DNA from: an uncultured Clostridia bacterium
GTDB lineage: Bacteria > Bacillota > Clostridia > Monoglobales > Monoglobaceae
Assembly: GCA_947631965.1 (NCBI GenBank)
Contig: CANRNL010000001.1
Location: forward strand, 62,001 to 126,000
Reading direction: 5' to 3'
DNA length: 64,000 nt
The position numbers were made by a program, and so were the translations under genes. How positions within the stretch are numbered: position 1 is the stretch's first letter; every line of letters begins with the position of its first letter. Under the pieces are notes generated by a model. The model did not search any database. It was not told the DNA's origin and saw only the letters and a program-made list of their open reading frames with translations. Below, piece after piece: positions 10,846 to 64,000 of this stretch.

Positions 10846-10848
10846 AAT

Positions 10849-11343: not shown

Positions 11344-11360
11344 AATAAATACCCCCTTAT

Positions 11361-11807: not shown

Positions 11808-11828
11808 CTTTCTCACCTCGTTTTTGAC

Positions 11829-11845
11829 TTTGACTTTCTTTGACC
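11829..11845 (-). promoter_or_regulatory. CtsR operator
   Basis: Minus strand GGTCAAA-GAA-AGTCAAA fits the CtsR heptad repeat RGTCAAANANRGTCAAA; a third AGTCAAA-type heptad overlaps at 11823-11829. Confidence 0.92.
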
Positions 11846-11854
11846 TTTAACAAT

Positions 11855-11882
11855 ATTATAGCACGATTTTTCACTATGTCAA
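11855..11882 (-). promoter_or_regulatory. sigmaA promoter of the ctsR operon
   Basis: Minus strand TTGACA (11882-11877), 16 bp, TATAAT (11860-11855), just upstream of the CtsR operator. Confidence 0.82.
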
Positions 11883-11912
11883 TAGTTTTTCCAAAAATTT
11901 TTTAAAAATTTT

Positions 11913-11949
11913 TAAATAAAAAATCGACTGCCTTTCGGCAGCCGATTTT
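11913..11949 (-). terminator. Intrinsic terminator downstream of the SLH protein gene
   Basis: Minus strand AAAATCGGCTGCC-GAAA-GGCAGTCGATTTTTTATTT; stem fully paired on the minus strand (one G:U), followed by a U-tract. Confidence 0.85.
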
Positions 11950-11962
11950 CGGTTTTATTCGT

Positions 11963-33021: not shown

Positions 33022-33023
33022 TC
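32174..33023 (-). repeat. Copy B of ~850-bp direct repeat
   Basis: See copy A at 27114-27963. Confidence 0.95.
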
Positions 33024-33093
33024 TTTTGTCCTCCAAACTTTATAATATATCTTCTAATTTAATTATTTTTTAAAATCATTTCGCCAAGTTGAT

Positions 33094-35214: not shown

Positions 35215-35230
35215 ATCGGACACACCTCCT

Positions 35231-39346: not shown

Positions 39347-39561
39347 ATCGCTTTTCACACCCTTTCGATTGGATTGTACGATTTGATTGTACTCTCGCCG
39401 AAAAACGAAACCCAACCCCGCCTCCTTGTCGGATGGGGCAGTTTTCGCTTGGTTATAAATTATTTCACGATCGGCTTGCGGCGCTTGCACACCGTATTTT
39501 GTCGCACGGTCGACTTTACATAGGGCGTAATATACGTCTAAAGCACAATACGCCTATTTAG

Positions 39562-39590
39562 ATTATATAACATCTATAATAAATTGTCAA
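39562..39590 (-). promoter_or_regulatory. Consensus sigmaA promoter for the 35231-39346 operon
   Basis: Minus strand TTGACA (39590-39585), 17 bp, TATAAT (39567-39562). Confidence 0.82.
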
Positions 39591-39644: not shown

Positions 39645-39678
39645 AAGAAACAGAGCGGAACTTTCCGCTCTGTTTCTT
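39645..39678 (-). terminator. Intrinsic terminator downstream of giant gene
   Basis: AAGAAACAGAGCGGAA / TTCCGCTCTGTTTCTT near-perfect palindrome, followed on minus strand by TATTTAAAAAATG; lies 25 nt past the stop codon at 39703. Confidence 0.8.
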
Positions 39679-39702: not shown

Positions 39703-42700
39703 CTACTTCTCAACGTAGTGCTTAAGCTCTGCCGTGCGATCCCAAGGATAATTTTGCGCTCCCGTAATATTGTCTATTGTTCGGGTAACGCTCTTATAAC
39801 TGGTTGACATATCGAATGCGTCGGTCCAGCTGAGTATCATTCCGTCTCGGTCAAGGTCGCAGGTTCCTCTGAATACAACTTCACCGTCATAGTGAATCCA
39901 CATCAGTATCCTCTCGCCTCTGCCGTTCTCGTAATAGCCGTAGGACGCGTATCCGTTTTCGTCTATACCGCCGAGAATTATATCGCTTGAATTATAAGCA
40001 ATTCCGTTATAGCTCTTGGTGCTGTTCTTAACCTTTTCGGGCATCACGCCAACCGCCATAAGTCTTCTCTCGGCAAGAATCTTAGCCATACCGTTCTCAC
40101 TCGCATCCTCATCCTCAGCCTCGGGCTCTGCGTCGGTGTTATCCTCTGCCTCATAGCCGTCCGCTTCGAGTTCGGAGTTGTCTGTCTCGTCAGCCTCGAC
40201 CGGCTCTTCCTCAGCTTCCGCTTCGGGTTCTTCTTCAGCTTTCGCTTCGGGTTCAGCCTCAACCTCGTCTTCAACAGCCGCGAGTTCAACCTCCGCCTCG
40301 GTATTTTCGGGCTCGGTTTCAGCTTCGGGTTCAGCCTCAGCTTCCGCCTCGGTTTTGGCGGTATCGCCACTTACCTCGGTATCGGTCTCGTCGCCGCTTG
40401 TCTCGTCGGACTTGTCGGTGTCGGGCTTAGTCTCAGTCTCGTCGCCGCTTGTCTCGTCGGACTTGTCGGTGTCGGGCTTAGTCTCTGCCTCGTCGCCGCT
40501 TGTCTCGTCGTACTTGTCGGTGTCGGGCTTAGTCTCAGTCTCGTCGCCGTTTGTCTCGTCGGACTTGTCGGTGTCGGGCTTGGTTTCTGCCTCGTCGCCG
40601 CTTGTCTCGTCGGACTTGTCGGCGTCATCCGACTCTTCGGGTTCTCCGTCAAGGACTTCCGCATCGCCTTCACTGCTCAGATACTTATCCGGATTATCCA
40701 AAAGCGTAAAGACAATTTCATACGACTCAAGCAAGGTGTTATCCATAAACATCGTCATAACCGAGAAGTCGGTTTCGTCTACCACGCCGTTACTGCTGCC
40801 GTAATCGGTTACGTTTCCGCTTATACAGGTCTTCGGTCCGAAGTCGTACTCCGCTTTCGCGAAGGTCTTGGAGCTCTTTATATTGCATATCTCGGTGTTG
40901 AGATAACCGTCGGTATGAAGGACTACCTTAAACAGTCCTTCCTCCGGAAGCTTGAACTCAAAGTCGGCTCCGAATTTACCGCCTTCGTTGTTGGCTACCT
41001 CCATTACGTTGCTGTTGCTTCCGTCGTGGTTTGCGGGCAGCCATTCGCCGTCGTCTTCATCCCACTTATAAAGCGATACGGTACCACTTGCGTCAAACAT
41101 TGTTTGTCCTTTGCTGCTGTTAAGTATGGCTGTATAAATGGTGCCTTTTACATAGGTCTGAAGTTCGGGTTCTTCAAGCTCGGTGTCTCTCGTTACCGTT
41201 ACATAGTAGCTGCCGCTCCTGTTACCGCCTACGCCGCTGACAATGTCAAAGGTGAACTTGAATTCCTTTTGGTCGAGCGCAAGCTCAAATTCCTTGGTAA
41301 TTTCAAGACCCGACATCGTTCCGCTCTCGCTGTAAACCTGCTCTCCGTCAAGAGATATGTTTACGGTCGGGAGGTACTCATCTGTCTTGAGCTTAAACTC
41401 GATGTTCTGGTCAAGTGCGTCAACGAGGACGTTGTACTCTATCTGCTCCTTACTGAACGTCGGGTCAAGCAGCTCATATTCGTCGTCAGGGTCGGTATCG
41501 GTAACAACCAATCCCACACCTTCGCTGAAGAACGCGGTGTTGGCTCTTACAACCTTTATTACATAGGTGTATGCCGTGTCGTTGTTTTCTCCTACCGTTG
41601 CGAATATATAGGAGATATTGTCCTCGCTCAGCTTGATGTTCCAGTCGATATTGCCTATCTGCTTCGCGGTATCCACTCCGTTGTAGGTGAAGTAGATGTC
41701 GTCCTCCGGATTGAGCGCGGTCGCATCAAGCTTGAGATATTCCGCAGCCTTGGATACGACTACATCATACGGTCCGGGTCCGCTGAACGAGCCTGCGGTC
41801 AGAAGCTCTGCGTCTGCCGCTTTAAGGCTTTCAAGTCTGGACTCTCCGTCCTTGCGAGCCGTGCGGGTAAGCTTAATCTCGTACCTGCCCGTCTTGGTTC
41901 CGCTTGCGACGATTACCTTTACTCTCGTTACCGCGTCGTCCGCTTCAAAGAACTCAGCCGGCAGAGTTACACTAACGGGCATTCCGCTCTGAGCGGTTAT
42001 CTGATTGCCGTCCGCCGTTTCTATAACTATCGTGTCGTCCTCACTCTCCGCCGTTACGGTCAGCGTCACCGTGTTGTCGGTGTAATCCACAACCGCGCTG
42101 TATGCCGTAACTTCGGGTTCAAATTCGGGCGTCATCTCGTACAAGCCGTCTGACGGAGCCGTCTCGTCGGTAAGAACGAGGTCTTGCAGTTTAACGGTCG
42201 CGAGATACTGCTCGCTTCTGGTCACATTCAAGATGTATTCAACGCTTTCGCCGTCAACCTCAAACTTAACCTTAACCGTCCAGCTCGTATCGTCAAGACT
42301 TACATTGAACAAGCGTCCGCTTCCGTTTTCTACGTTTTCGTATTCGCCATCGTCAATGCTCATACTGATTTGCGGGCTCTTCGAGTCGTCGTAGCCGTGA
42401 GATGCGAATACCGTAAATTCTTCAACATCCTTGCCTATCAGAACGTCGTACTCCTTAACAAGCGGGTCGTACTCGCTCTGCATCTCCGCGTTGTAGTCGG
42501 TCCAAATGTTGGAGAGTATCGGCTTGTCGGTGTTGTATACCTTAACCGTGTACTCGTTTACAAGCTCATAGCCCGTATCGGAGAACTTGGTCGCTCTGAA
42601 TACGAACTCTGCGGAAGAACTGTCGGCGGGTATGGTCTGAGCAATGTTGCTCGGCAGACCGCTTACAACCGCGTAATCGTCAAGCTCCTCGTTGAACAGT

Positions 42701-51700: not shown

Positions 51701-54700
51701 CCGTCGATGATTATATCTATATCCTTATCCGCGTTCGTGTACTTCTTGCCTATGAGCAAGTCGTAGGTCTTGTAAAGACCAATCTTATCCTTAATGTCTG
51801 CCGCGTCAATGTTGTTTGCCGCGCCGACTTGGACTTTAACCATCGTGAAGCCGCCGTCCTCATCACGGAGCGGTATCTGAAGCACGAGGTTTTGGAGTTC
51901 TTTCCAGCCCGCGTCGGTCAGAGATACGCTCGACCAGTTTACATCCTCGTCGCTCGCATCAAAGTTCTCGGCACGCTCGTCGTATTCCGCGAACTTCTCT
52001 TCGTACTCTGCCATTGCCGCCTCGAATGTCTCGTCGGACGGATACTGGTCCTCAGTCGGCTTAATGGGCTTGTTCAGATAGCCTATTCTTACATAGTTGA
52101 CGTAAGAGCCGCCGTCAACCGCCGTCGCGGTGACTTTCGCGCTTTCAGCCTTCGGATTTATTCTTGCAATGTACTTCTCGCCGTCAAACTGCGGAGCCTC
52201 GTCCACACCGCCGAGTGTGTCGGAAACCAGAATACTCTCAAGACTGAGGTCAAGTATATTCACGTTGATGTAGAATGTCTTGCTCGTGGTTCCGTCCGCC
52301 GCAAGAACCGTTACCTGTACGCGGCTGAGGAGGGTTCCGAGTGTTCCTGTGCTGATATGGTAGTTATAACCGGTTCCCTGTACGTTAACCTGAGCGCGCA
52401 GAGCCTTTGTAACCGCTTCGAGGTCGTACTCGTTAATGCCGTCGGGTATCCAAAGCTGATACTCGCCGGTCGCACTGTCGTACGTCGCCGCCGAACGAAC
52501 GGGCGTTCCGCCGTCGTCGTATATTGCCGTTACGCTCTCAAGGTCGGTCAGGTTGCTGTTTCTGTAAATATACAGGTACGAGGTCAGTATCGAGTTGCCG
52601 TCAAGAGCCTTGGACTTAACCTGATAGATTGTAAGCTCTCTGTGGTCAAGCTCTTCGTTGTCAGCCTCCCAGATATATCCGTCGGTACTCTGCGGGTCTG
52701 CCGCCTGCTCGCCGACTATGGTTATGCTGCCGTCGCTCGCCACGGTGTAGTCAACGCGTGCCGCGCTTACCATGGTAAACGTATCCTGCGCCTGAACATA
52801 TACCTTGTCAAGAACTATGGTTTCATCAAACGACGCGGTCGCCTCGGTCGGCAGGTCGAAGGTGTAGATAACATCTCCGCTCTCTGTCGTCTCGGTGTTA
52901 TTTGCATTATAAACCTTGCCGTCGTAGGTCACCTGTACCTTTGCAAGCGCGGGATTGATGCTCTGCCTTGACATATGCAGTACATAATGTCCTTTAAGTC
53001 CGTCAGGCGTCGTAACGTCTATCGGAATATAGAAGTCCATAATGCTGAGGTCAAGCTTGAAGTCTATCGCCGCAATTTCGTGAATATATCCGGTGTTGTT
53101 CTTATTGTTTATGCTTACGTTTGCGTTAACGTTTGTCGCCTCGGCGCGTATCGCGATGTATTCGAGGTCACGGCTTATTACATACTCGTATACGCCGTTC
53201 TCGTCCGCGGTCAGAACCTCCGCTCCGACCGACATCAGCTGTCCGCCGTCGAGTATGTGCGGGTCGACCTTAACCTCACGCAGTCCAGTGAAGTACTGCG
53301 AGGGCTTAAGAACCAGCTTATACTCTGCGGTGTTGCCGCGTCCGTTGATGACGGTTATCGTGTAGGTCGTGCTTTCCTTGGTCTGGTCAACCGCCAGAGC
53401 CCCGTTTGTCCACGTTCTGCCGTCTTCGTCTATCATACCGCTTTCGGTTATGTCACTGCCCGTAGCGTCGTCAACTATTTTCACTCTGCCGGATTCGGGA
53501 GTGATTCTCGCCTCTACGCTTTCGACATTGTCCTTAACCTCGGCGATATAGGTGTTGCCCGTGCGGGTTATCTCAACGCCGTTTATCTCAACTCTTTCAA
53601 GATTTGCCGCGTCGGACTCCTTGATAATAACGAGCATATGCTCCTCTTCGGCCGCGCCGGACGCAACTCTGAAGCGTATCTCTGTTCTCTCGTTGATAAG
53701 TCCGCCGAGAACTCCCTCAAACTCGCCGATATACTTCGCGCTGTCATAAGAGGGCCACTCTACCGTTACGGTCGCGCTCGGATTCTTCGTCTTAATGTAT
53801 ATCTTAGCCGAATTCTTGGTGTCTCTGATATATACGATATGCTCACATTCGGGTTCAACGCCGACCTCGCTCAAAAGAACCGCGCCGCCTATTGAGAGGG
53901 TCTGCATTGACATACTGTTTACTCTGAGTTCGGGCATTCCGCCGCCGGGCAAGTACCATACGTCGTCGAAGTCCCAACCGTCGAACGTATCCATATCCGT
54001 GAGGTCGCCTGTGCCGCTGCCGTTCGTGCCTTCGTAGGACGGGTCGTCGAATACCATATCCATACCGATGCCGGACGAGCTGTGCGTATTCTCCAGAGTA
54101 CCGCCGGAGCCGTTGCTGAGAGTTATTCCCGCGCGATTGCCCGTGCCGGTAAAGCTCGGATATGCGTATGCACGTCTTATGGTGCCGTCGTTGTACGCCG
54201 CGATTCCCGCCGCGTTATTGTTGCCGAGTATGATTCCCGATACATAGGAGTCTTCTATAAGACCGCTGTTGCGGTATACCATTCCGCCCGCAGCCGCGTC
54301 GGAGTCTCCGCCGACATTGCCGCCGCTTACAGCTACCTGAGAGATAGTTCCCGCGTTTTCGCCTGCCAGAACGCCTACGCCCTCATCGCCTTCAGCCGCC
54401 GATACCGAAGCGTCCTTAATCAGGATGTTCTCTATCGTACCGCTGTTGACCGTGAACAGACCGTCTTGACTTACGTTGAGACCTATCATCTTATAGCCGT
54501 TTCCGTTAAGGCTTCCGCTAAACTCGCCGAGCGGGCTTATCGTACCGAGCGTCGACATATCAATGTCTGTTACCAGCTCGTAGTGCTTGGTAAGACTGTC
54601 TGCGTCGTTGCCGATACTCTTAATGCCTATCGCCGAATCAATCTTGTAGGGCTTAGCCGCGGTGCCGTTGGGTATCGTAAGCGAGGATACCGGAGCATCG

Positions 54701-57700
54701 TCGCTCTGACCCTTAAGGGTCGGATACTCGCCGGGAGCCGCTATCGTCCATACGTCGTCGAAGTCCCAACCGTTGAAGGTATCTTCCTTGGTAAGGTCGT
54801 GCGCCCATACAGACTCGCTGTTTGTAACCGTAATACCTTCGCCGGCAATAACCGGATACGGATTTATGGTGTAAGAGTTCGATATTTCGCCAACGCCGTT
54901 TCCGTTGGAAGTTGCGGCTATTCCTGCCACATATCCTTCCGCAGTAACGGTACCTGCGTTATATACGTTTTCTACCTTGGCACTGCTGCCCATCGAACCG
55001 ACAATACCGCCCGCCGATGTATTTCCGCCATTGGTATTAACCGAAGCAACATCCGCCTTGTTGTAGGAGTTAATGATGGTGCCGTTGTTGTTACCTGCTA
55101 TGCCGCCTATGTAAATACCGCTGCCCTTAACAGTACCGCTCGATACCGCAACTCTGCTTATCGTGCCTCTGTTGACTCCGGCTACCGTACCAACTGAGTT
55201 TCTTCCGCTGATGTTTACGTTTTCAAACTTAATGTTGTCTATGGTGCCTTCGTTTATAACGAACAAGCCTCCGATACCGTTGCCGCCCTCATTGGACATT
55301 GTAAGTCTGCGTATCGTAAATCCGTTGCCGCCGTTGCTCGTGAGCGAGCCGGTAAAGGATTTTTGCAATCCGCTTTGTACTGTTCCGATCGGCGTCCACT
55401 CTAAGCCGCCGAGGTCTATATCGTTCATCAGAACGTAGTGCGCCGACATATCGTTTGCTATATTCTTGAGGTCGATAGCGTTTCTTATCTTATACGGATT
55501 TTCTTCCGAACCGTCGCCCGGATCCTCGGTCTCGCTCGATTCGCCGTCATCGCACGACGCCTTCGCCGCAACGTACTCGTCCTCGGTGCCTCTCTCTGCT
55601 ATTACAAGCTCAACGCTCGTGCTTCCGCCCTCCTTGGAGATAAAGAGCGCGTAATCCATATAGTCGCCGCTTGCCGAGGTAACTCTTATCGTGAACCTTG
55701 TAACGTCGCCGGTGAGCAGAGCGTTGGTAACGTCTACCTCGCCGTTCGTACCCGAAGCTACCAAAGAGGAGCTTTCGTCGTACAAATCTACCTGAGAGGT
55801 TATCAGCCATGCGGAGACGTGTATCGTCGCAGTCGAGCTGCCCGACGAAACCGTAGCCGTATATCTGCCGAGAACATCCATCTCGGCGGGCGTACCGTCA
55901 ACGACTACTCTTGTAAGGCTGAGGTCTCTCGAAATCTTCTGGATAACCACATTCTTGCTGACCTCGCCGCTTGTACCGTCATACGGATAGGTGTAGATTG
56001 TGAACGGAACGACCGTTGTCGTGCCTGTCAGGTCGAACAGCTTGGTGTTCTCGGAAAGCACAGGCTCGTTAGTCTCGCTCGCCCTGCCCAAGAGTACCTT
56101 GGAAATCTTGCTTCCCGCAACGACCATAACTTCGGCCTGCGTAGCGTTGTACGCCGCCTGGTATACATACTGTCCGTCAGTCTCTTCGACCTTCTGCTTG
56201 TTAACATATACCGCCGCTTCGCCGTCGCCGTTTGTGCCCTTTATAATATAGAGGGTGTATTCCTCGGTCTTGCCTTCGGCTTCTATCTCGAAGTGAACCT
56301 CGGTTATGTCGTCCGTGAGCTGGATAAGCTCGGTCGCGCTCGGACTGCCGGTCTTGGTTACCAGCTTGACGATTGCGCTGTCGTTGGACGCGGTTACCTT
56401 GAGTATGCCGTCCGCCAGAGCGGGTACGTTTACTGCGTATACGTTATTGAAGCCTTCAACCTTATCCGCGGTAACTCCCGCAAATACGACGCTTTCAACA
56501 CCCGTATCGCCTGTGTCGGCATACGTTATGGTAATCTTATGCTCGTCGCTCTCGGTCGCGTCGTCATAGCTTACTATCTTGAAGCGGAATTCGGTTTCGC
56601 CGTCGCTGTCAAGCTCAAGATTTTCAAATATCCTGCTGCTCAGGTGGTCGGACCAAATCGCGCTGTCCTCGGTGCCGTCGCCTATTCCGTCGCCGTAGAA
56701 CTTAACCTTAGCCATAGCTCCGAGCGGCAAAACGGTTACGTCTACCGGAGCGTCTTCATCAGCCGCTACGGTGTAGTCGCCGTTGCTGTCGGCGGTCAGT
56801 TCGTTCTCGTCAACATAAACCTTATCAACGCCGAGTTCTTCGTAATCTCTGTAAATATACAGCGTGTACTTCTGAATAACCTTCTCGGACGAGGACTGTA
56901 CCGTGAACGGTATTGTCTCAACGTCGCTTATGAGGGTATAGTTTACTGACAACTCGCCCTGCGCGCTGTTGTGCGTGAGCAATCCGGGTATCGTTATGGT
57001 CGCGCCGCCGTTTACGGTGCGGATAACTACCCTTGCGGGGTTCTTGCCCTTCGGGTCGGACGGATTTGACGGAATGGATATTTCGTAAATCGTCGGGTTG
57101 TTTCTGCGTGCAACCGCCGAAATATCGTTTACGGTCACCGCGTGACCCTCTCCCGCGAGGTCTACGTTGTCGGTCTTCTTATAAATGCTTATCGTGTACT
57201 TCTTCTCCGCGTTCGGCGTGAGTACCGTGCCGTCCGACAGTTCGGTATAGAGCTGCGAGCGAACCGTTACTTCAAGCGTCGTCTCCTCGCTGTTTTGGTC
57301 GAGTACTATTCCGTCTGTCTCCCAACGGTTGGAGTACGGACTTGTAAGCGTCTGGTTATACGCTCCGCCGATACTTACTATCTTAAGACCGCTGTCCAGA
57401 CCCTGAACCGTTACGTCTGCGCTTGTTACGTCGTTCTCAACGCTGAACGAATACTTGGTGCCGTTGAATATCGGCGTGCTGTTCTCGTCGCCGTTTACGT
57501 CGACATACTCAAGCGACAGGTCATCCGACGCGCCCTTAAGAATGAGGTAATACTCTATGGGAGCCGCCGACATATTCTGCGGCTGGAGCTTAATTCTGAA
57601 GTATCTTACAGCTCCAATATCAACGCCCGCGTTTACGGGGAAGGTGTAATCCGTGCCGGAGTGAGCCGTGTAGCTTACGGGGCTGTTTATTACATTGCCG

Positions 57701-60700
57701 CCCACCGCGTCTACCTCTACAAACTCGGTTATATGCGCGTTCGCGTCGTCGGTGGTTATATCCACGTTCGTGGTGCGTCTCGGCATACTTGCTTCATAGA
57801 TACGCGAGCCTACGCTCATATCCACATTGTACTCGCCCGCAAGACCCTTAGCGGTCACAATCTTAACAATCTCCGCTTCGGTTCTCGTCTTTCTGAATTC
57901 AAGCGCGTAGCTTGCCACGCTGCCGTTCTCGGCGCGTACTTCAATCACATACTTGCCCTCATGCTCGGACGGGTTGAGTACAAAGCTGCCGGTATTCTGA
58001 GTTGACCAGCTCTGACCATGCCACTCGTTGTTATCGTCATAGTAGCCGACTCTCATATTGGATGCCGGTGAAGTCTCTATATCAACAACCGCGGAGGTCA
58101 CCCTATCCGGCTCGTCAAGGAAGAGTACATATGTGTCTGTCTTGCCGTCGCTGTCGTTATCCTCTTCGGACGCGGGGTCGTTCATATACGTCACATAAAT
58201 TATTTCGTTCGCGCCGCTGCGCCTGTAAACTCTCAGCTTCTTGGGAGTCTGCCAGCTCGTGTTATCCGGGTCTGCCGCCGCGCTCTGAGAGAGAACATAT
58301 ATATCGAACTCAAGATATTCGGGATTTATGCCGTCCCAATCGTGTATGTCCTTAGGACCGAGCGTCGTAACGTGAGTATCGACTATATCGCCCATATTTG
58401 TCGGAGCGGGCGAGCCTGCCTCAACCACCATAACTCTCGCATACTGCGAGCTTGTGGTAACCTTTATCGTAGCGTAGACGTCCTCCCAGCTTACACTGCC
58501 GTTGTAATACGGCGTCGGGTTGAGCGCGAGAGGCGCTTCCAGACCGTTCACCTCAACGGTTACATCGGTGTCGGTGCTTTGTTTGAGTACTTTCAGCTTA
58601 TACGTCTTGACATAGCTGCTGCCGTCCTTGGTAATGTCAACCTCATATATTCCGGCTTCGGTTTCGGTTATGCCGGTGAGGTCAACGCTGAAGGTATAGG
58701 TATCTACGTCGGGATACTTCGCCGAACCTGCCGCATACGGCGGGTTAACGGGTCTTATCGCGGAAATAATCGCATCCTCGTCTTTGCTGACCGCTTCAAG
58801 GATAATGTCGTCGGTGAGGACATTTCCTCTTACGAATACGGTCACTTCGCCGGTGCTTTCCGTATCCTCGTAAATCTGACCCATATAGCTTGCCTTGAGT
58901 CCCAAATCCATATCGGCGGGAGTAACTATTATATAGTATGTCTTTACCGAGTTGCCGCTCGATGTGACTTCTACCTCTACAAGGTAGGAATCGTTGCCCT
59001 CGGAGCTTTCGTTGTACTTATAGGTCAGCGCTCCGAGCGAGAACTGCTTGGTAACAACACTGCCGTCGGTCGAGTAAGCGCCGCTCTCGCCTGCCGCCTC
59101 GAACTTCGTTACCGTCGAGGTCGCGTCCTCCAGCTTAACGCTCAGCGTAAAGTCGGTTGTAGAGCCGCTTCCCTGAGGTACGAATACATGGTATGCGGTA
59201 AGCGAGCCTACGCCTACGGTAACCTGATCGTCGTCGCTCTCGTCTACATATGTGAACTTCTTTCTCTCGGCTTCATCGTTCGTGGTCGGATATGATGTTA
59301 CCGATGTAATTCTTGTGTTGTTATTCTTTCTGTACAGATACAGCTTGTAGGTCGCCGCCTTATCTTCGGAAGAAGCATCCGAAACGGTTACGGTCACTAC
59401 GGTAACGTCGCTCACGTCAGCTTTGACAAGCTCGGCCTGCTCAATCACAGACGCCTGAGTTGTGTCGGCGCTATTGTCCATTATCGCGCCCGTCTCAACC
59501 GCTATTTCAACCGAATAGTTGCTGTCGGTCTTAGCGGCGAGCTTAGCGAACTCCGCTTCGCTCTCCACATAGTAGAAGTACGAACCGTCGGGCTTCTGAT
59601 ATGTGCTGTCGAGAGCGTTGTCGCTCGTCCAGTCGCTGTCTACCCAGAGCGACAGCTTGTAATTGTCGCTGAGGCGCTCAAGGTGGAGCAGGTTCTCATA
59701 TACGTTGCCCTTGTCGTCATACAGCTTGAAGGATATGTCCTTGGAGTTCGTGCCGATGGGCATTGCTATTTCCATCTCGGCATATCCGCCCGCAGTCCTC
59801 TCGCCGTTTTCTATTTGTACCGAATGGCTTGTGCTCATTGAGCGTACACCAACCAGAACCTTCTCCGCGTCGGGAAGAACATTGTAGAAGGTGTAGTTTT
59901 CGCCGTACGGCTGTGTAGCGTCACCGGTCGGGTCGTTGGCTTTAATGCCGTTTACGGTTATTTCTTCAACCGCGAGCGCCGCGTCGGTGCCTATTACTCT
60001 TATTGTGTAAACTCTGTTATCCTTTGTTCCGTCCTGAGAAGCCGACTTGATAAACTTATCTACCGAGCCGCCGCCCATTATTCCCGTGAGGTCTATCGCC
60101 GTCTGAGTGTACGGCGCGCCGTATGCAGCGCTTGCAATCTGTGCGTCGCCGAAGCTCTCGTAAATTCCCGACAACTTCGCAAGCTCGTCGGCTGTCATTA
60201 CCGTAAAGTCTGCCGAAGTCCAGTTTTCGGGCACTTCAACTATCCACATATTGCTTTCCGCATAGTCGTCCGCCTTATGAGCGTAGTACGAACCGACCTT
60301 GACGTACTCCAGATTATCATCATCATTGGTATCTCTTATGATAAGAGTGTACTCCTCGGTGCTGTATCCGTCCGCGCCGGTTACGGTTATGCGGTATCTG
60401 CTTATGGGCTGGTCGTGGAGAGCAGTCTCCTCGTTCTCCCACGTTCCGCCGACTACGGTATTGCCTTCTATCGGATTGTAGCTCAAGTCAAACGGTGATG
60501 TAGCGGTGTCTCTGCTTATCGCGTCAACACTAACCGATGCGTTGCTGTCCTGAGCCGTTATCTGAATCATCGCGTTGAGCCAGTTTGCAACCTCGCCGTC
60601 TCTCTCATAGGTGTAAACCTTGCTTACGGGCTGTACCTCGCTGTAAGGAACCGCGGACGCGCCGTCGCCGTCCTTGTGTCCTACGCGAACCTCTTTAAGC

Positions 60701-63700
60701 GCGGTGTTCACAACCACCTTGGTTACTTCGAGCGTGTAAGTCGTGTCGGTGCCGTCCTGCGCCACAACCTTTATCGGTATGTTGGTGGGCTGAGCGGGCA
60801 GCGCAATCGTATTAACGCGTCTCGCGCCCGTCTCGGTGTTGTCCACGCTGCCTTCGTTCGCGTTGATATAGATGTTCTGTACGCGAGGCGTTTCGGGCGT
60901 TGCAATCACGTTGATGTTGCTTACCGTGTTGGCTACCTTAACCTTATACGTCTTGGTATCGGGGTCGTAGGTCGCTTCAACCGTCTTGCCGTTTACTTCT
61001 ATCTCAACCTTTTCAAGGTTGCTGTTGTTCGACTCGGAGTAGATGCGCAGCATATGAACATCCCACGCGCTGCCGTCCTCCGCTCTTACATATATCGGAA
61101 CCTCGGCATACTTGCCGTTGGTAAGGCTTACGCCCGTGAGGTTCAGTCTTACGTTATCCTTCGTGTCGCCGTCGTAGAAGCTCAGACCCGCGGGAAGTGC
61201 GCTCGGTTTAACGTAAGAGCTGTTCTCATAGATTTGAGTATCTATCGCTATCTGAGCGTTTATATCAGCCGCCTTTGCTCGAACGGGGAGATTTATTCTG
61301 CCGTTCTCGGCATAGACCACATAATATTCTTCGCCGGTCGCCGCATCCGTCTTCTCTTCGAGGCTGCTGTCCTCGTCCTCAATCTTGGGCGACTTGACAA
61401 ACTCTATTCCTGTCTCCGACGTCTTCTTGCGGATTATGAGCTTATACGGCTTAAATGTCACACCGTCCTCAGCCATAACAGCCACGGTGAGCGTCATTTC
61501 GCCGTCGTTGAGCGACAGAGGCAAAGTTATTATCTTATCCGCCGTGCTTGAAGCTCCTTCAAAGTCTGTTTCGTCAATATCATCCGCTCCTACGGCGGGG
61601 TTGAATATGACTACCTTAGACGTGGTTTCAAGCGTCTTTGCTTCAATGTTGATGTGCTTGTTCGGGTCGGTAATATCCTCTGCGTTTATACCCAGATAGT
61701 AGTATACCTCTCCGTCCTCGTCCGTGAGCGTCTTAACCTTGCCCGTGTAATTCGGACTGTCGGCTTCTTCGGTGGGCTGTGCGTCCACGCTGAGCAGAGC
61801 CACGTTGCTCGACGCGTAGGTTACCTCAACCACCCATACGTCAGGCGGGTCTATGCCGTCCGCGCGGGTTATGAACAGGTTGAAGCGAACCTTGTTGTTG
61901 TCAACTCGGTCGAGATACTCGTTCGGAACGGTAAGCTCTACTATTCCGCCCTGCAGCACGTCTGCGCCGCTTGTGTCGTTCCAAACCGATGTCGCGTACG
62001 CGGTCTTGTTCGAGCTGTGGCTTATCGAGCCTGCCGCCGCCTTGGAATATGCGTTGCCGACGTGTACTCTCAGCTTGATACCGTCGTCGGAGTACGGCGA
62101 CGAGCCTCTGAAGGTCTTTATGGAGTCAAATCTCTCAGCCGTCTTTCCGCCGATTTCGAGACTGTCAACTCTGTTTGTCGGAGGCTGCTTATACAGATAT
62201 ATCGGATACGGATACGGTACCGCCTTAGTGCCGTCCTCCGCCTCAACATATGCGTAAAGCATTGTCGGTCCCGGATATGTTATTGTCGTCTCAGCCTCGT
62301 CAAAGTAGGTCGCGTCCTCCGCAGCCGCGCCGCTGTGCGGTTCGGTGGAGAGGGTCACTCTGAGCGACTTATCCTCGTTGCCGTCTGCGTCGGTTCCGAC
62401 AGCCTTAATCGTCTGCTTGGTGTTGTCGGTTCCGTCCTCGGACGGTTCGAGAGTATACTTAAAGTATGTTCCCGCTCCGTCGCTTACAAGCTCCGCTTCT
62501 TTGTCGCCCACGAATACCTTGATATTCGTGTTGCCCGACATCTTAACAATGTCTATTCTGTAAGCCTTGGAGCCGTAGCCTATCGACGGAGGATAAACCG
62601 CCGCGTATATCGTGGTCGTGTCGCTGTCGCCGCTGAGGGTTACGTCTATGCTCGCAACATTCGACGAAGCCGCCAGTGCCGCGTTTTCGGCAGAGGGCTG
62701 GTCGAGCGCGACGCCCGTCCTCGAATTCGCCTGTGCCGCACGAACGTTTACTCTCGTGAACTTATCGGTATTCTTAACCTTTACAACATATCTGTCGTTT
62801 TCGAGGTCGTATGTAACCGGATAATTTCCGAGTGTTATCGACGCTCCGACAGACGCTATATTGAACGCCTCTATGCTGTCGAGTCTCGGATCCGCCGACT
62901 CTCTGTAAAGTCGCAGCGTGTAGGTCTTGCTGTTAACTTTCAGCTGAACGTCCATATATCCCTGGTCGTTGGTTTCAATATCTATTGTGTTGTTCGCCTT
63001 ATTTGTCGCGGGAGTTTCCGAGCCTATCTGAACCGTCGCATCGCGGAGCATCGAGATAAGCGTTACATCCGCCGTCGCGTCGTTGTCGCCTACCGACCAT
63101 ACATACATTTCCTGACCGTCCAGCTTGGTTCTCGGTATATTGCCGCTGTCGTTTACTGATACATACGGCTCGTCTCCGACCCTTATTATGGTCAGCGTGT
63201 AAGGTGCGCCGCTAAGTCCGCCCGCGGTAACAGTCAAAGTAACGTCGTCTTGCAGCTTGCTCGGGTCGAGCTTCAAGCCTTCGTATGTGAAGTCGCTGTC
63301 CTTATCAACGCTTCTCTGATTGTTCGCTCCGCCTGCGGAATATGCCGGCGAATGAGTTACCGCCGCGACATCCACTACCGGAACAGCCTTAACGTCCGCG
63401 TTTACGGTATCCTCCGGAATAACCACTTCGTACTCCAGCGGAGACTTGCGGGTCGCGGTGTATACCGAGCTTCCGCCTTCCGCATCGTACGCCGTAACGG
63501 TTATATTGTCGGACATCTGCGTTGCCGCCGTCTGTCTGTAAATCGTAAGGATATGGTCTTTGTAGTCCGCGTCGCTGCTCTGCGGGGTTACTCTGATACC
63601 GACCGTCTTGAACGACTCGTCGGCTTTCATTTCAACCGCTTGAACATCATAGAACTTATCGTGCGTAAATACATCCGAGTGGTCGGAGTTAACCTTTACG

Positions 63701-64000
63701 CCCGCGAGCGCTATCTCGCTCGACTCAAGAACCTCGCCGTATACATACAGCGTCTTATCCTGCGGTTCTCCTTCTTCGTTGATAACCGCGTAATAATTAC
63801 CCGTATTTCCTATTTCGTACGCCGTTACGACATTACTGTCAGTCGCGGGGTCGGCGTTCTTTAATTTATTGTGTCCTTCCTCCGTCAAATCAAAGGTTTC
63901 GGTTTCGGAGTTTTCTCCGACCTTTAACGTCTTGATTGCGGCGTCGTTTGAATATCTTGTGGTATGAGCCTTATACAGATTTACATATCTTATCTGATTC
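39703..64000 (-). CDS. Giant secreted protein of tandem cadherin-like beta-sandwich domains with internal GLUG beta-helix island and dockerin-like C-terminus (5' end beyond window)
   Basis: Uninterrupted minus frame from 39703 to the window edge; manual translation upstream of the track's TTG 'start' gives NQIRYVNLYKAHTTRYSNDAAIKTLKVGENSETETFDLTEEGHNK with no stop. Dozens of repeats of the form 'L..L.V.......P.F.....Y...V......V.v.A.......V...........L..G.N...V.V...DG....Y.V.V.R'. Confidence 0.93.
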   Translation of the reverse strand, partial: NQIRYVNLYKAHTTRYSNDAAIKTLKVGENSETETFDLTEEGHNKLKNADPATDSNVVTAYEIGNTGNYYAVINEEGEPQDKTLYVYGEVLESSEIALAGVKVNSDHSDVFTHDKFYDVQAVEMKADESFKTVGIRVTPQSSDADYKDHILTIYRQTAATQMSDNITVTAYDAEGGSSVYTATRKSPLEYEVVIPEDTVNADVKAVPVVDVAAVTHSPAYSAGGANNQRSVDKDSDFTYEGLKLDPSKLQDDVTLTVTAGGLSGAPYTLTIIRVGDEPYVSVNDSGNIPRTKLDGQEMYVWSVGDNDATADVTLISMLRDATVQIGSETPATNKANNTIDIETNDQGYMDVQLKVNSKTYTLRLYRESADPRLDSIEAFNIASVGASITLGNYPVTYDLENDRYVVKVKNTDKFTRVNVRAAQANSRTGVALDQPSAENAALAASSNVASIDVTLSGDSDTTTIYAAVYPPSIGYGSKAYRIDIVKMSGNTNIKVFVGDKEAELVSDGAGTYFKYTLEPSEDGTDNTKQTIKAVGTDADGNEDKSLRVTLSTEPHSGAAAEDATYFDEAETTITYPGPTMLYAYVEAEDGTKAVPYPYPIYLYKQPPTNRVDSLEIGGKTAERFDSIKTFRGSSPYSDDGIKLRVHVGNAYSKAAAGSISHSSNKTAYATSVWNDTSGADVLQGGIVELTVPNEYLDRVDNNKVRFNLFITRADGIDPPDVWVVEVTYASSNVALLSVDAQPTEEADSPNYTGKVKTLTDEDGEVYYYLGINAEDITDPNKHINIEAKTLETTSKVVIFNPAVGADDIDETDFEGASSTADKIITLPLSLNDGEMTLTVAVMAEDGVTFKPYKLIIRKKTSETGIEFVKSPKIEDEDSSLEEKTDAATGEEYYVVYAENGRINLPVRAKAADINAQIAIDTQIYENSSYVKPSALPAGLSFYDGDTKDNVRLNLTGVSLTNGKYAEVPIYVRAEDGSAWDVHMLRIYSESNNSNLEKVEIEVNGKTVEATYDPDTKTYKVKVANTVSNINVIATPETPRVQNIYINANEGSVDNTETGARRVNTIALPAQPTNIPIKVVAQDGTDTTYTLEVTKVVVNTALKEVRVGHKDGDGASAVPYSEVQPVSKVYTYERDGEVANWLNAMIQITAQDSNASVSVDAISRDTATSPFDLSYNPIEGNTVVGGTWENEETALHDQPISRYRITVTGADGYSTEEYTLIIRDTNDDDNLEYVKVGSYYAHKADDYAESNMWIVEVPENWTSADFTVMTADELAKLSGIYESFGDAQIASAAYGAPYTQTAIDLTGIMGGGSVDKFIKSASQDGTKDNRVYTIRVIGTDAALAVEEITVNGIKANDPTGDATQPYGENYTFYNVLPDAEKVLVGVRSMSTSHSVQIENGERTAGGYAEMEIAMPIGTNSKDISFKLYDDKGNVYENLLHLERLSDNYKLSLWVDSDWTSDNALDSTYQKPDGSYFYYVESEAEFAKLAAKTDSNYSVEIAVETGAIMDNSADTTQASVIEQAELVKADVSDVTVVTVTVSDASSEDKAATYKLYLYRKNNNTRITSVTSYPTTNDEAERKKFTYVDESDDDQVTVGVGSLTAYHVFVPQGSGSTTDFTLSVKLEDATSTVTKFEAAGESGAYSTDGSVVTKQFSLGALTYKYNESSEGNDSYLVEVEVTSSGNSVKTYYIIVTPADMDLGLKASYMGQIYEDTESTGEVTVFVRGNVLTDDIILEAVSKDEDAIISAIRPVNPPYAAGSAKYPDVDTYTFSVDLTGITETEAGIYEVDITKDGSSYVKTYKLKVLKQSTDTDVTVEVNGLEAPLALNPTPYYNGSVSWEDVYATIKVTTSSQYARVMVVEAGSPAPTNMGDIVDTHVTTLGPKDIHDWDGINPEYLEFDIYVLSQSAAADPDNTSWQTPKKLRVYRRSGANEIIYVTYMNDPASEEDNDSDGKTDTYVLFLDEPDRVTSAVVDIETSPASNMRVGYYDDNNEWHGQSWSTQNTGSFVLNPSEHEGKYVIEVRAENGSVASYALEFRKTRTEAEIVKIVTAKGLAGEYNVDMSVGSRIYEASMPRRTTNVDITTDDANAHITEFVEVDAVGGNVINSPVSYTAHSGTDYTFPVNAGVDIGAVRYFRIKLQPQNMSAAPIEYYLILKGASDDLSLEYVDVNGDENSTPIFNGTKYSFSVENDVTSADVTVQGLDSGLKIVSIGGAYNQTLTSPYSNRWETDGIVLDQNSEETTLEVTVRSQLYTELSDGTVLTPNAEKKYTISIYKKTDNVDLAGEGHAVTVNDISAVARRNNPTIYEISIPSNPSDPKGKNPARVVIRTVNGGATITIPGLLTHNSAQGELSVNYTLISDVETIPFTVQSSSEKVIQKYTLYIYRDYEELGVDKVYVDENELTADSNGDYTVAADEDAPVDVTVLPLGAMAKVKFYGDGIGDGTEDSAIWSDHLSSRIFENLELDSDGETEFRFKIVSYDDATESDEHKITITYADTGDTGVESVVFAGVTADKVEGFNNVYAVNVPALADGILKVTASNDSAIVKLVTKTGSPSATELIQLTDDITEVHFEIEAEGKTEEYTLYIIKGTNGDGEAAVYVNKQKVEETDGQYVYQAAYNATQAEVMVVAGSKISKVLLGRASETNEPVLSENTKLFDLTGTTTVVPFTIYTYPYDGTSGEVSKNVVIQKISRDLSLTRVVVDGTPAEMDVLGRYTATVSSGSSTATIHVSAWLITSQVDLYDESSSLVASGTNGEVDVTNALLTGDVTRFTIRVTSASGDYMDYALFISKEGGSTSVELVIAERGTEDEYVAAKASCDDGESSETEDPGDGSEENPYKIRNAIDLKNIANDMSAHYVLMNDIDLGGLEWTPIGTVQSGLQKSFTGSLTSNGGNGFTIRRLTMSNEGGNGIGGLFVINEGTIDNIKFENVNISGRNSVGTVAGVNRGTISRVAVSSGTVKGSGIYIGGIAGNNNGTIINSYNKADVASVNTNGGNTSAGGIVGSMGSSAKVENVYNAGTVTAEGYVAGIAATSNGNGVGEISNSYTINPYPVIAGEGITVTNSESVWAHDLTKEDTFNGWDFDDVWTIAAPGEYPTLKGQSDDAPVSSLTIPNGTAAKPYKIDSAIGIKSIGNDADSLTKHYELVTDIDMSTLGTISPLGEFSGSLNGNGYKMIGLNVSQDGLFTVNSGTIENILIKDASVSAAEGDEGVGVLAGENAGTISQVAVSGGNVGGDSDAAAGGMVYRNSGLIEDSYVSGIILGNNNAAGIAAYNDGTIRRAYAYPSFTGTGNRAGITLSNGSGGTLENTHSSSGIGMDMVFDDPSYEGTNGSGTGDLTDMDTFDGWDFDDVWYLPGGGMPELRVNSMSMQTLSIGGAVLLSEVGVEPECEHIVYIRDTKNSAKIYIKTKNPSATVTVEWPSYDSAKYIGEFEGVLGGLINERTEIRFRVASGAAEEEHMLVIIKESDAANLERVEINGVEITRTGNTYIAEVKDNVESVEARITPESGRVKIVDDATGSDITESGMIDEDGRTWTNGALAVDQTKESTTYTITVINGRGNTAEYKLVLKPSQYFTGLREVKVDPHILDGGQLMSVGAEVLTADENGVYEYVISRDLEYIAIRAEATNVNANVSINNKNNTGYIHEIAAIDFKLDLSIMDFYIPIDVTTPDGLKGHYVLHMSRQSINPALAKVQVTYDGKVYNANNTETTESGDVIYTFDLPTEATASFDETIVLDKVYVQAQDTFTMVSAARVDYTVASDGSITIVGEQAADPQSTDGYIWEADNEELDHRELTIYQVKSKALDGNSILTSYLYIYRNSNLTDLESVTAIYDDGGTPVRSAATYDSATGEYQLWIPDGINEYDLEAVTKALRAQVNVQGTGYNYHISTGTLGTLLSRVQVTVLAADGTTSKTFYINVNILDLSLESILVSDTLGGVDEAPQFDGEKYIARINPKAESAKVTATAVDGGSYVNYVRIGYLNKPIKPTEDQYPSDETFEAAMAEYEEKFAEYDERAENFDASDEDVNWSSVSLTDAGWKELQNLVLQIPLRDEDGGFTMVKVQVGAANNIDAADIKDKIGLYKTYDLLIGKKYTNADKDIDIIIDGKTLNMEDNDGYTEGNTTYYRVGVSRAVGKNSVYFNTKEYAPSPYDPLVRVSDAVDPTYLTLTDFDPQPTNTTVSMAINPLSDNETTEIYVYSYPEADLDEDGVTADPQYGHRYVITVYRMSEDDTINVTETTVNDTYRTRGDTTTTGYKDYFTVSEATMVVDPETGRRYVKVYIKANSDKAKITINEQTYSGRNPSFIGETDDDTVMNGDEIKGILIPVTEGAISKTVSYTVTSEDGSKVSKNTLEITILSVNTDVDYVRVNSSNAYGPYYDDPSGIPYFEAFVPESVLDTEVPIEVQAATYTSGTTAELRDYALAPNDWVYNSSVRMRYRVSHMYEMPSSDILPKDAYSPYEVEFRIRPEAGAVDSSAKPQDYIIRIYLADSENNEVEKVEKDDELLHGVWVDKVGRITDENIENETAKRADYVGDDPYSQYDYRVDIDADITELEMKVAAEYEYAGVDIQDAYTGQWSYNYSTHEKTVRLTNLKPQQSYVVHFRIRTQAQMLANDSTSDGLGRTYSVRLERLSSNRALSMVAVYPNDPQKKDVRVEGLTTDKPIEFVTRYGETEVPIEIQAESASARIEIKDVSSGVSSGNLIDETLPFDEADDRTEMSTFTTSSNHKMPVEVHWQTYSVLVYAYEGDTAPAEYIVKVSRVVNNMTVKSITFNGRTAIRDANDPYLFTIDIGYDENIADIVAVADDSEEYIKFVPGTYGYVTGQNEENAVDLSSIAINATKTIDIRVGSKDVISTAPSLETDQYMDTSLVITRLPKDTLRSDLDLDISVGNRKTDPYSFELARFDSEEEIPDADRDQQSDGRYLRGKYMRNYSANINPSAITAYIKTQMKGMSSDVAFYLVDETTEIPLTNDTEDLLSTEASMSGLDRIKVHIVVKAKDGYYQDYMLTIQKTSSETGVLRVVAESDSSTNGAAEGMVSGITNNIIEYKVDLPTDATWVRPRVYTKDPYSYVSFYKTSYSPPNGERYDPTVAGNDGVRGEQTSLGNLTTVTYYFRVMPRTGSDYTDYKITMVNRPQSTRIAEVKAGLRSPENYEPLNERDYPINDTIVDGSQTVIWYNTSINAFTTYLVSIPYMPDDDTAILKVTAENNFATVEYPGLHLNQEDAQDTDRIPAYMDDVQLNDIETDSFTTVPVKVVSPLDEAHPQNYEVVITRYQHVYDLSVMVNGEMTKRVGGKESTTYERPTKLPFSVSEVTFNIAMAAPNKSYKIKVGDDGIMREVSPGNSMLTVNNIPLTDVETIVPIYVYDDSEMLLDTYYIIVRREMVNNNIGEILVNGNEVVEAVIFGDPGFEAYSYSAGDEALADVKIWAANTNADVTLSYWNTNIAGTTVGSPNKGYLQTDVNVETGDNYFWIEIDIGGSKVFYPLLIHHIPVDVYLDDVYVTETEDTEQLELVPSFIKTVENYTVKTRPGLSEYDIYATAYTTAKELEEYGKSQHWAPEQYQTRIQIGNGSELSMEDFSGGISSYVKQYISTITDGVTPEYVRVPVYLKVPHFIRTYNLDIHVPSDDTLLSELAVRHITNLSDYTLTPPYVASDSDDYTANTAVYSTEVSSDTEKVLIYAHARHDHAAWGYAGASTKVSMTDGNGASLASAKVEINQEVELNYGDNVFYVIVTSEDGEPKTYTLHVYRKPIKAELESVLVNGYPAVYDGANTYVAYVENGTTPEIVATATDTRADVTLTHLGDTVTDTHKATLALTDPVENEANVDIGVDVLGVDSKDYNLQLIGVTGDILSIYMDVESNTFTPTANNPIAAKWNSAQNRYEIYIPYNAPYDPYLRVITLNAGNKVKIGTHEFDYADGGITDTQYTKQTYLNHYQDPQSIIVMVDETNPRSYEVYVKRMSNEASLEALDVVQSAGVGALTPAFGSQTFAYTIDVTKETSELEFSRILATTNASLTLYYDDQAIDFTAQNGAGYKVENLKYGDNMFRIEVVSQDKTVTKVYVVNIRREKPAAEAALEDIRITIDGTYYSLVPMFDPEIYSIGNPYYMSVEGALIESEHPISIEAFVSDAFDDDYKVTSTVKYTTEDGTIVDESGPVEKNVVTIGNSADHPAVDRDLDSRSTTEVIFTVLSNDNGTRMREYKIILYKNEQINTNPKFNYLSSISLANHELTMAPFSSAETDYNYYANVSNVEAYEYLTIVPNTSMGANITLTMYDMSNGGAETHPLSGDPQQLNLTEGDNVYIIKVSVETSNMKKAEYYYSVIINREIANSESSRLNSLTVDNYTSAITQTSTRAFKLTVGTNVESINLHTYAENNKATIWVRSEMRDYDQIKTGENHAMDIPLVEGDNKVVITVTAPATDASDVSFTKTVYVLNVYRQTRGDATELIDIKYSDKEKGVMTPLFNSQIHNYYLAYNYDVSTVTLNPVPKSPDLVDIDASVGGTTTPLIPAADGTFSFSTSIAEGETKVVTFTVKAKGETGGTQYTVTLHRNMTETPIPSLSQALRLRDDAAVQYPIIPDFDADTHTYFASVPSDFDVAGITVWAQSNDPSNASDVAIKILPQSGIVETMANGVEKKFSDVVYGNNVYVIQLSNSHGNVTYYTLIVNRAGAGVETPSLDDLEVSYPSGYELTPAFNTDTKVYEVYVENDTEQIRLRPTSDSAAEIKINNLIVASGTESDLIDLEIGKNTITVVLTAADGATEQTYIVYVYRAKDDTPYYLTQLQLNKGTVVPSFSREVTNYYVTVPQNVASIDISAAANTGIVKANDNLVNGTYVQALKAGALNMVTFKLYDDNTTKIPRKAYTLSVYRKSTVESSADLASVTVDGYDIMPDFSPRELNYYVYVDADAESVDIDAEAASEYATVSGTGTVALTGNKTVRIITVTNGDTIQRYSVTVLKAAPDESVAGHLDGTDIQASAIAQTIYVDEDASSLTLNVNASGGNIVTVNGKEIDPSGETFSMSTEKERFDISVRSGADANATFESYVVYAYKGESDTYEPYITRIMADQNSSSTAQANFLSAFDPTVFGKYELINDGGTIYLFARPNDNQTYIELFNEELDDYAVVSGLPSNIAQTIPADSSSAEFVFRATKFSDTGYELVNEYTVKVYNTDKPILSNIWTDYNAEMQSEYDPLVKEYDVLIGKDVEEFTVFASHGYDDSKSPQISMSIDDGEYENVENGSGRLFNVSLDDTSWTVKVKFEVDGESVEYILNVTRSEQYLATVKLQDLVLTDETAPSDGLYEMTPEFEPEVTAYSAVVDYTDNTVTLTVTAESEDDTIVIETADGNQITAQSGMPVSVTLPAEFFEADDAVTRVKVIVASGTKTGRYEIKLTRTARKDGESRLESLKAADAELLTAGSFSGPGPYDVVVSKAAEYLKLDATALNPEDDIYFTYNGVDTAKQIGNIDWNIKLSEDNISYIFATVGENNDTAYTYVIKVVRANTAFFSEGVGLVVTDTDPDDEYELLDPTFSKEQIEYNVLVDALDQNIEFKLKTDEYLPTVNISLDGEQVYSESGTMSGLEITKEFELALDQKEFKFTFDIVSGVGGNRSGSYYVTVTRDTELEEPELQTYVKGTIYTAILNSSKGQTMFDASGTVSLYKWDEDDGEWLPANHDGSNSNVMEVANNEGGKFGADFEFKLPEEGLFKVVLHTDGYLNTEICNIKSSKTFAKAEYDFGPKTCISGNVTDYGSSNGVVDETDFSVMTMFMDNTLLESYEIVFTLLDNPDKYLSSEGDAEVLDGEPEESDDADKSDETSGDEAETKPDTDKSDETNGDETETKPDTDKYDETSGDEAETKPDTDKSDETSGDETETKPDTDKSDETSGDETDTEVSGDTAKTEAEAEAEPEAETEPENTEAEVELAAVEDEVEAEPEAKAEEEPEAEAEEEPVEADETDNSELEADGYEAEDNTDAEPEAEDEDASENGMAKILAERRLMAVGVMPEKVKNSTKSYNGIAYNSSDIILGGIDENGYASYGYYENGRGERILMWIHYDGEVVFRGTCDLDRDGMILSWTDAFDMSTSYKSVTRTIDNITGAQNYPWDRTAELKHYVEK
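40391..40627 (-). repeat. 51-bp tandem repeat (17-aa DKSDETSGDEAETKPDT)
   Basis: 'tcgccg(c/t)ttgtctcgtcg' recurs at 40391, 40442, 40493, 40544, 40595. Confidence 0.93.
53920..55550 (-). other. GLUG-motif beta-helix region inside the giant protein
   Basis: GSEENPYKIRNAIDLKNIANDMSAHYVLMNDIDLGGLEWTPIG...GGIAGNNNGTIINSYNKADV...GGIVGSMG...DTFNGWDFDDVWTIAAPGEYPTLKG, then a second copy ending DTFDGWDFDDVWYLPGGGMPELRV. Confidence 0.85.

Follow-up and report, generated by a model that had tools for sequence, protein, structure and literature searches.

The giant gene and its neighbours

The window is a stretch of 64,000 nucleotides (G000:C1:62001-126000) taken from a 1.95-Mb, 48-contig, 81%-complete assembly, G000. 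On its minus strand, positions 39703-63999 form an open frame of 8,098 codons and a stop, which runs past the window edge. This gene, the genes and signals next to it and the part of a genomic island that surrounds them lie at the following window positions.

11906-64000, no strand: part of the island inside the window, absent from the sister species G001; its flanks are collinear with that species at about 94.5% DNA identity
39703-64000, minus: visible part of the giant gene, residues 9,892-17,989 and the stop
39646-39677, minus: Rho-independent-terminator-like hairpin directly 3' of the giant gene, from sequence and folding
39562-39590, minus: perfect sigma-70 consensus (TTGACA-17-TATAAT) 5' of the partner gene, from sequence
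35231-39490, minus: partner gene, 1,419 aa, with Flg_new_2, cadherin-like domains and a dockerin-like C-terminus
33094-35223, minus: secreted island protein, 709 aa, with a dockerin-like C-terminus
28072-33036, minus: secreted island protein, 1,654 aa, with List_Bact_rpt repeats
23201-27961, minus: island protein, 1,586 aa, with three C-terminal SLH domains (PF00395, E 1.3e-34), a candidate cell-wall anchor
20837-23008, minus: island protein, 723 aa, with MBG, He_PIG and a true Dockerin_1
11963-20803, minus: island protein, 2,946 aa, with C-terminal SLH domains, a candidate cell-wall anchor and the last gene at the window-side end

The contig was read beyond the window and held a single stop-to-stop frame of 18,004 codons (C1:101703-155717), whose real start is the ATG at codon 16. 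The product is 17,989 aa long (1.92 MDa, pI 4.4). This ATG lies at C1:155672, 29,672 bases past base 64000; it is preceded by a ribosome-binding site, AGGGGAGAAG, and opens an N-terminus, MKLKQRLSKWLSTLIMLSMLASSVQTSAAG, which is signal-peptide-like as judged by eye. An earlier sequence-only reading, made from the window's letters, had expected the N-terminus and a signal peptide outside the window and had proposed extending the contig, and the extension bore it out; the TTG at 63888, which it did not take for the true start, is merely the first TTG inside the window. The whole gene measures about 54 kb, and the window holds only the C-terminal 45% of the protein. The frame contains no Ns, its codon-position GC is uniform over all 54 kb, and the chance of such a stop-free frame at the GC content of the gene is about 10^-330, which excludes a random open frame. 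Cysteines, described earlier as very few, number 19 among the 17,989 residues. As read from the contig, the giant ORF is one complete gene for a predicted secreted protein.

A perfect TTGACA-17-TATAAT also stands upstream of the giant gene, outside the window (L003:9845-9817), and the hairpin behind the gene has a perfect 15-bp stem (-24.5 kcal/mol, z -9.0). Because a consensus promoter precedes the gene and a terminator hairpin and a second promoter follow it, the giant gene is probably its own transcription unit. Homologues of the partner gene adjoin giants also in genomes G097, G426, G427 and G430; the family is 25-28% identical in alignment A3 (E 1e-66 to the G097 gene) and its C-terminus matches the X-dockerin of CipA in the PDB (E 4e-5).

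The island spans 82,039 bp (C1:73906-155944), where the sister species, a member of the same genus with a PolC 96% identical to that of G000, has 26 bp. Besides the giant, it encodes six proteins. A true dockerin is found in one of them and SLH domains in two, and at the locus only these neighbouring genes have SLH domains. The island ends (G000:C1:73905 and 155945; G001:C11:41053-41080, L088) are in A+T-rich intergenic DNA with no visible target-site duplication, and no long frame resembling an integrase was noticed within the island or at its ends. By its sequence, the N-terminal part of the 1,586-aa and 1,654-aa genes is a recent duplication (the first 283 residues of the products of 23201-27961 and 28072-33036 are 96% identical, then diverge), joined to an SLH end in one and a dockerin-like end in the other. 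The 709-aa and 1,654-aa proteins are 63% identical over their C-terminal 380 aa, which include degenerate dockerin-like halves (GDVDMTLVxNPSDATNLNKM and RICDFDNTGAVNxxDATN); the partner gene also shares this end, at 27-28%.

Two repeat zones and a split C-terminal module

The chain begins with the signal-peptide-like segment, followed by a conserved N-terminal domain, an Ala/Lys/Glu-rich, low-complexity, disordered-looking stretch, 17 propeller units, about 67 cadherin-like sandwiches, a small beta domain and a split dockerin-like module. The parts of the protein encoded in the window are these.

41164-64000, minus: stalk of about 67 (about 65-70) cadherin-like beta-sandwich domains, residues about 9,716-17,503
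53923-55515, minus: Gly-rich, Peptidase_M26_N-like insert in the stalk, residues about 12,720-13,250 (Pfam PF05342, E 4.9e-10)
40828-41208, minus: C-terminal beta domain, carboxypeptidase-regulatory-like, residues about 17,489-17,615, a block conserved in alignments A2/A4
40744-40827, minus: first dockerin-like half, CISGNVTDYGSSNGVVDETDFSVMTMFM, degenerate, aligned to RAGDVNNDGVIDDADVELF of strain CE91-St43
40045-40644, minus: acidic low-complexity insert splitting the dockerin-like module, 17-aa repeats (DKSDETSGDE..), then Ala/Glu-rich
39808-39861, minus: second dockerin-like half, CDLDRDGMILSWTDAFDM, from alignment A4

The N-terminal half, which lies outside the window, gave 77 RCC1 stretches in Pfam and more than 1,000 bits for WD40_RLD in each third. 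It belongs to the RCC1 propellers, whose mark is repeated blades above cut-off, seven per domain (PF00415, PF13540 and PF25390). Over residues 638-9,717, self-built profiles detected 100 blades together with 18 Ig-like domains of the Big_2 type; the Big_2 domains delimit 17 propeller units, most of them 450-620 aa long, with seven blades detected in six units and fewer in diverged ones. Seventeen RCC1 propellers, linked by Big_2 domains, make up more than half of the giant; it is not a uniform cadherin filament, and the picture drawn from the window was incomplete.

The stalk, about 7,800 aa long with its first ~180 residues outside the window, belongs to the Cadherin-like family (PF12733, curated cut-off 24.2 bits). 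Nine PF12733 stretches were found in the visible half, eight of them (199.4 bits) in window positions 39706-51849 and one (33.5 bits) in 51850-63999. An iterated self-built profile matched 40 stalk repeats, and the number of about 67 domains follows from their median spacing of about 117 aa. The one stalk segment modelled with AF2, residues 16,740-17,170, where profile coverage is partial, was all-beta with a mean pLDDT of only 55; in Foldseek it resembled Ig and cadherin arrays best, titin and protocadherins among them (E as low as 5e-11, at low whole-chain TM), and one match was to the S-layer protein SbsB. The earlier description of the repeats as beta-sandwiches agrees with the Pfam, profile, AF2 and Foldseek results alike, and that of dozens of cadherin-like repeats of 90-110 aa suits the visible half, with a somewhat longer spacing, but not the propeller half. 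A stretch like the M26_N-like insert sits among the first propellers in G097 (1,975-2,337), G426 (2,233-2,513) and G427 (2,242-2,532), as if the insert had moved within the protein.

The C-terminal beta domain was modelled by AF2 as strands with pLDDT mostly 50-76, and CarboxypepD_reg scored below cut-off in the homologue of G427. The acidic insert contains a 51-bp tandem repeat of 4.7 copies, and comparable inserts are present in five homologues. When the two dockerin halves were joined, they scored 31.5, 22.6, 20.4 and 17.3 bits against Dockerin_1 (PF00404, cut-off 22.9 bits) in CE91-St43, G427, G424 and G097, respectively. The giant of the window gave no Dockerin_1 match in Pfam, even with the halves joined, and is not a Dockerin type I member; since those of its relatives score between 17.3 and 31.5 bits, its C-terminus is best read from these alignments as a degenerate homologue of a split dockerin. 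AF2 left the split module without a resolved fold (pLDDT 37.6), and Foldseek with the C-terminus model returned no match at E <= 0.001.

A family of giants in gut Clostridia

The giant is one member of a gut-clostridial family that seems not to have been described. A search of 80 relatives with its C-terminal 799 aa returned the self-match only, as for an orphan gene, and this possibility was ruled out when RCC1 counts and the N-terminal domain revealed the family. RCC1 searches led to a 29,380-codon frame (29,377 residues) in G097, a genome of another family, with the same domain plan and an N-terminal domain 33% identical to that of the window's giant. A search with this domain (alignment A1) led to nine loci in eight further genomes, and sixteen other genomes carry it in total. 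Readable giant frames were found in Oscillospiraceae bacterium HAN068 (17,651 codons), in two uncultured Clostridia (33,038 and 33,070 codons) and in the closed chromosome of Oscillospiraceae bacterium CE91-St43 (AP025582.1), which encodes the largest member (34,110 codons, 3.60 MDa); the frame of Ruminococcaceae bacterium CU972 has at least 18,501 codons and ends in Ns. At the remaining loci the frames are short, in several cases close to a contig end, and these loci are outside the set of readable giants.

All readable giants share the signal-peptide-like start, the signature motif, the propellers, the stalk and the dockerin-like end split by an acidic insert. The start was recognised by eye (K/R n-region, hydrophobic core, small-residue cleavage region) in G000, G097, G424, G426, G427 and G430, and the motif SPE(V/I)xEFLRxxYxxGLxQENSxYDL or a close variant was present in every copy looked at. 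The N-terminal domain was found in 14 of 70 genomes of family f16 and in 4 of 391 in a class-wide sample. Two different copies of it occur in a goat-duodenum genome, G428 (RGIG2264), on C333 and C544 (L044 and L045; frames of 2,794 and 8,075 codons). A second giant may therefore exist in some species, or G428 could be contaminated, an apparently identical record (G445) being listed with 8% contamination.

Across the giants the stalk measures 7,788-10,062 aa, whereas the propeller section ranges from 8,175 to 23,179 aa and the propeller number from 15 to about 37. From G097 to G427, all 35 propeller units had their best match at the same ordinal position, and these orthologues are 36-58% identical, compared with about 30% for units within one protein. 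Units 8-17 of G000 matched units 6-15 of G424 in order, as did nearly all stalk repeats, while units 4-7 of G000 and units 1-5 of G424 were closest to their own neighbouring units. This last pattern indicates that the propeller array has grown at its distal end, with units 4-7 expanded within the lineage of the window.

Between G426 and G427, dN/dS was 0.214 across 33,007 codons and differed little between zones; by this value the giants are under purifying selection. The repeats had been described from the window as highly diverged, old and maintained; the stalk repeats do align in order across species with little resemblance to each other, and positional orthology with purifying selection confirms that description. 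Diversifying selection on duplicated propellers was looked for and not found: the duplicated units of G000 gave dN/dS of 0.23-0.48 (0.29-0.48 for units 4-7), which is constraint, with synonymous sites of older pairs near saturation.

In trees the giant grouped with sequences of genus g66 of family f16 (N-domain 99/98, stalk 100/100), whereas G000 belongs to family f1, whose sampled relatives all lack the N-terminal domain. This grouping and the clean absence from the sister species make a horizontal gain of the island by the window's species probable; loss in many relatives is a possible alternative. The stalk is about 36% identical to that of the nearest sampled relative, which is therefore not the direct donor. 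A mis-binned contig was also considered, given that the nearest giants occur in a different family; the PolC of the contig rules this out, being 96% identical to that of the sister species and about 54% to that of the giant-bearing genus.

Proposed function and comparison with known systems

We consider it rather probable, from the domain content and its conservation, that the giant is a Sec-exported surface fibre which serves in adhesion, with its binding propellers held distally by a spacer of nearly constant length. One gene would give one Sec-exported polypeptide and one very long, thin fibre. The chain would leave the cell N-terminus first and its C-terminal end would remain at the cell surface; N-first export and the C-terminal anchors of most Gram-positive adhesins are the grounds for this orientation. 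The stalk would act as the spacer, and the propellers as a distal row of diverse protein- or glycan-binding surfaces by which the cell may adhere to mucus, to other cells or to food particles; the propellers could instead be structural and not binders. Changes in length would come from propellers added at the distal end, and the species would probably have acquired the locus within an 82-kb island that also brought candidate anchors and partner proteins. With 4.2 nm allowed for each sandwich and 8-9 nm for each propeller unit, the chain is estimated to reach about 0.4 um in the window's species and 0.6-0.7 um in relatives of 33,000-34,000 residues, and one copy would need an estimated 15-40 minutes at usual bacterial elongation rates. 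The word filament used in the sequence-only reading can stand here for one chain, itself about 0.4 um long by this estimate, and not yet for a polymer.

The anchor is the weakest point of the surface-fibre model. The giant has neither an SLH domain (Pfam) nor an LPXTG motif (motif scan) of its own, and the genome has a pyruvyl-transferase gene alongside its SLH proteins. Ordinary cohesin-dockerin anchoring, to judge from the genomes searched, cannot be general, because the closed genome with the biggest giant (G430, CE91-St43) has no Pfam cohesin. Cohesins were detected in G000 (one, borderline), G097, G424, G426 and G427. The single cohesin of G000 (407-aa frame) has as its neighbour, at G000:C35:11002-13088 (L007, L010), a dockerin gene with a 351-aa frame, and the two are possibly a small cohesin-dockerin pair outside the island.

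These cohesins, together with the dockerin-like ends of the giant and of several neighbours, the likeness of the partner family to the CipA X-dockerin and joined halves that pass the Dockerin_1 cut-off in CE91-St43 and nearly do so in G427, would suit a scaffoldin-like platform at the surface or in the matrix, which gathers enzymes and dockerin proteins and plugs its split end into a cohesin-bearing anchor. We regard this platform as unlikely: the giant has no cohesin in its 17,989 residues (Pfam) and does not qualify as a scaffoldin, G430 has none in its genome, G000 has only five Dockerin_1 genes, and the dockerin-like halves of the window's giant fail Pfam.

A coat in which chains pack side by side or end to end, like an S-layer or sheath, with repeats free of specific ligands, would be compatible with very acidic, cysteine-poor, all-beta repeats, with SLH proteins in the same island and with the SbsB match, and an extracellular coat has been proposed for an Omnitrophota protein of 39,678 aa (PMC10066038). 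However, the identity and order of each propeller are fixed, seemingly beyond what generic packing needs, and absence from the sister species and patchiness in the family are not expected of a coat gene, so that such a coat seems improbable.

Giant genes have been reported in predatory organisms (PMC10066038), but a role in contact-dependent antagonism or predation, comparable to polymorphic-toxin stalks or to the surface-degrading giants of predatory bacteria, is very unlikely here, since no toxin, nuclease, protease, glycosidase or other enzymatic domain was recognised by Pfam in all 17,989 residues and no HExxH motif by scan, the C-terminus is conserved and not a variable tip, and a terminator and the partner gene, not a small immunity-like gene, follow the giant.

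An artefact of assembly or annotation, either a chimeric frame or a repeat number altered by short-read assembly, has hardly any probability left. The window's assembly is incomplete and in 48 contigs. The gene has exact internal repeats of up to 127 bp, and stretches of its distal units are up to 90% identical over about 500 bp; the exact number of units 1-7 could for this reason be wrong. Nevertheless, the independent assembly G424 matches the protein in order from about residue 5,250 up to the C-terminus, the codon structure is uniform, both island flanks match the sister species and the PolC on the contig is 96% identical to the one of that species. The in-frame stop or chimera named earlier as the refuting case was not seen, as far as sequence can tell, and both are opposed by the homologous 34,110-codon frame in a closed chromosome and by two further genomes with 33,000-codon frames under purifying selection.

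A larger claim than the adhesive surface fibre itself, that these giants form a new family of megadalton fibres with a near-fixed stalk, an ordered series of propeller binders, each conserved by itself and distinct in function, and a new split-dockerin anchor with an acidic insert and a non-cohesin partner, and that they travel as an island among families of gut Clostridia, we put forward tentatively, as possible and short of probable. No description of a family of RCC1/cadherin-like giants was found in the literature, and its novelty is provisional since preprints and most subscription papers were beyond the search; for now, the giant is provisionally a multidomain surface protein with a new architecture, giant surface proteins themselves being already known. 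Giant genes of gut bacteria need not be erratic, strain-specific oddities, and one chain of 18,000-34,000 residues can stay in register across species under purifying selection. The near-constant stalk with a variable propeller number is a testable claim on reach and binding, and strain CE91-St43, if a culturable stock exists, offers a starting point for biochemistry and for asking what a protein of 3.6 MDa costs to make and how Sec handles it. A survey of huge proteins, which does not mention RCC1, found signal peptides almost only below 20,000 residues (PMC11573180), unlike the giants of 29,000-34,000 residues here, which start with signal-peptide-like segments.

Comparison with cellulosomal scaffoldins and dockerins showed a likeness in the dockerin-like C-terminal module and in the X-dockerin-like end of the partner family, but the window's giant has no cohesin, and roughly 200-450 acidic, low-complexity residues separate the two F-hand halves in the family. 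The propellers are of the same blade family as RCC1 and BLIP-II; however, BLIP-II is a single propeller, whereas the giants have 15 to about 37 per chain with Ig-like domains between them. BLIP-II is itself a secreted bacterial binder (PMC9218822). Filamentous adhesins have a common plan of anchor, repeated stalk and distal tip (PMC7616799), and the periscope and repeat-stalk adhesins Aap and SasG likewise combine an anchor, a repetitive beta stalk and a distal binding part in one chain, but they are LPXTG-anchored and vary in stalk repeat number (PMC7616799), while the window's giant is without LPXTG and its family has a near-constant stalk and a variable distal array. Giant1-5 of Apilactobacillus kunkeei (3,000-8,000 aa) are similar, by the description given of them, in being consecutive, very large surface-protein genes in a small Gram-positive genome, and are two to ten times smaller (PMC12863079). 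The Omnitrophota giants resemble the present ones in size class, in a proposed extracellular role and in being encoded by a single gene of more than 50 kb, and that of V. archaeovorus LiM is larger than any here (PMC10066038). However, 42 transmembrane helices are predicted in the LiM protein, and in most giants of its class conservation is poor and annotated domains are few (PMC10066038), whereas the present family, from a different phylum, has a defined two-zone plan with a signal-peptide-like start and is conserved repeat by repeat across species.
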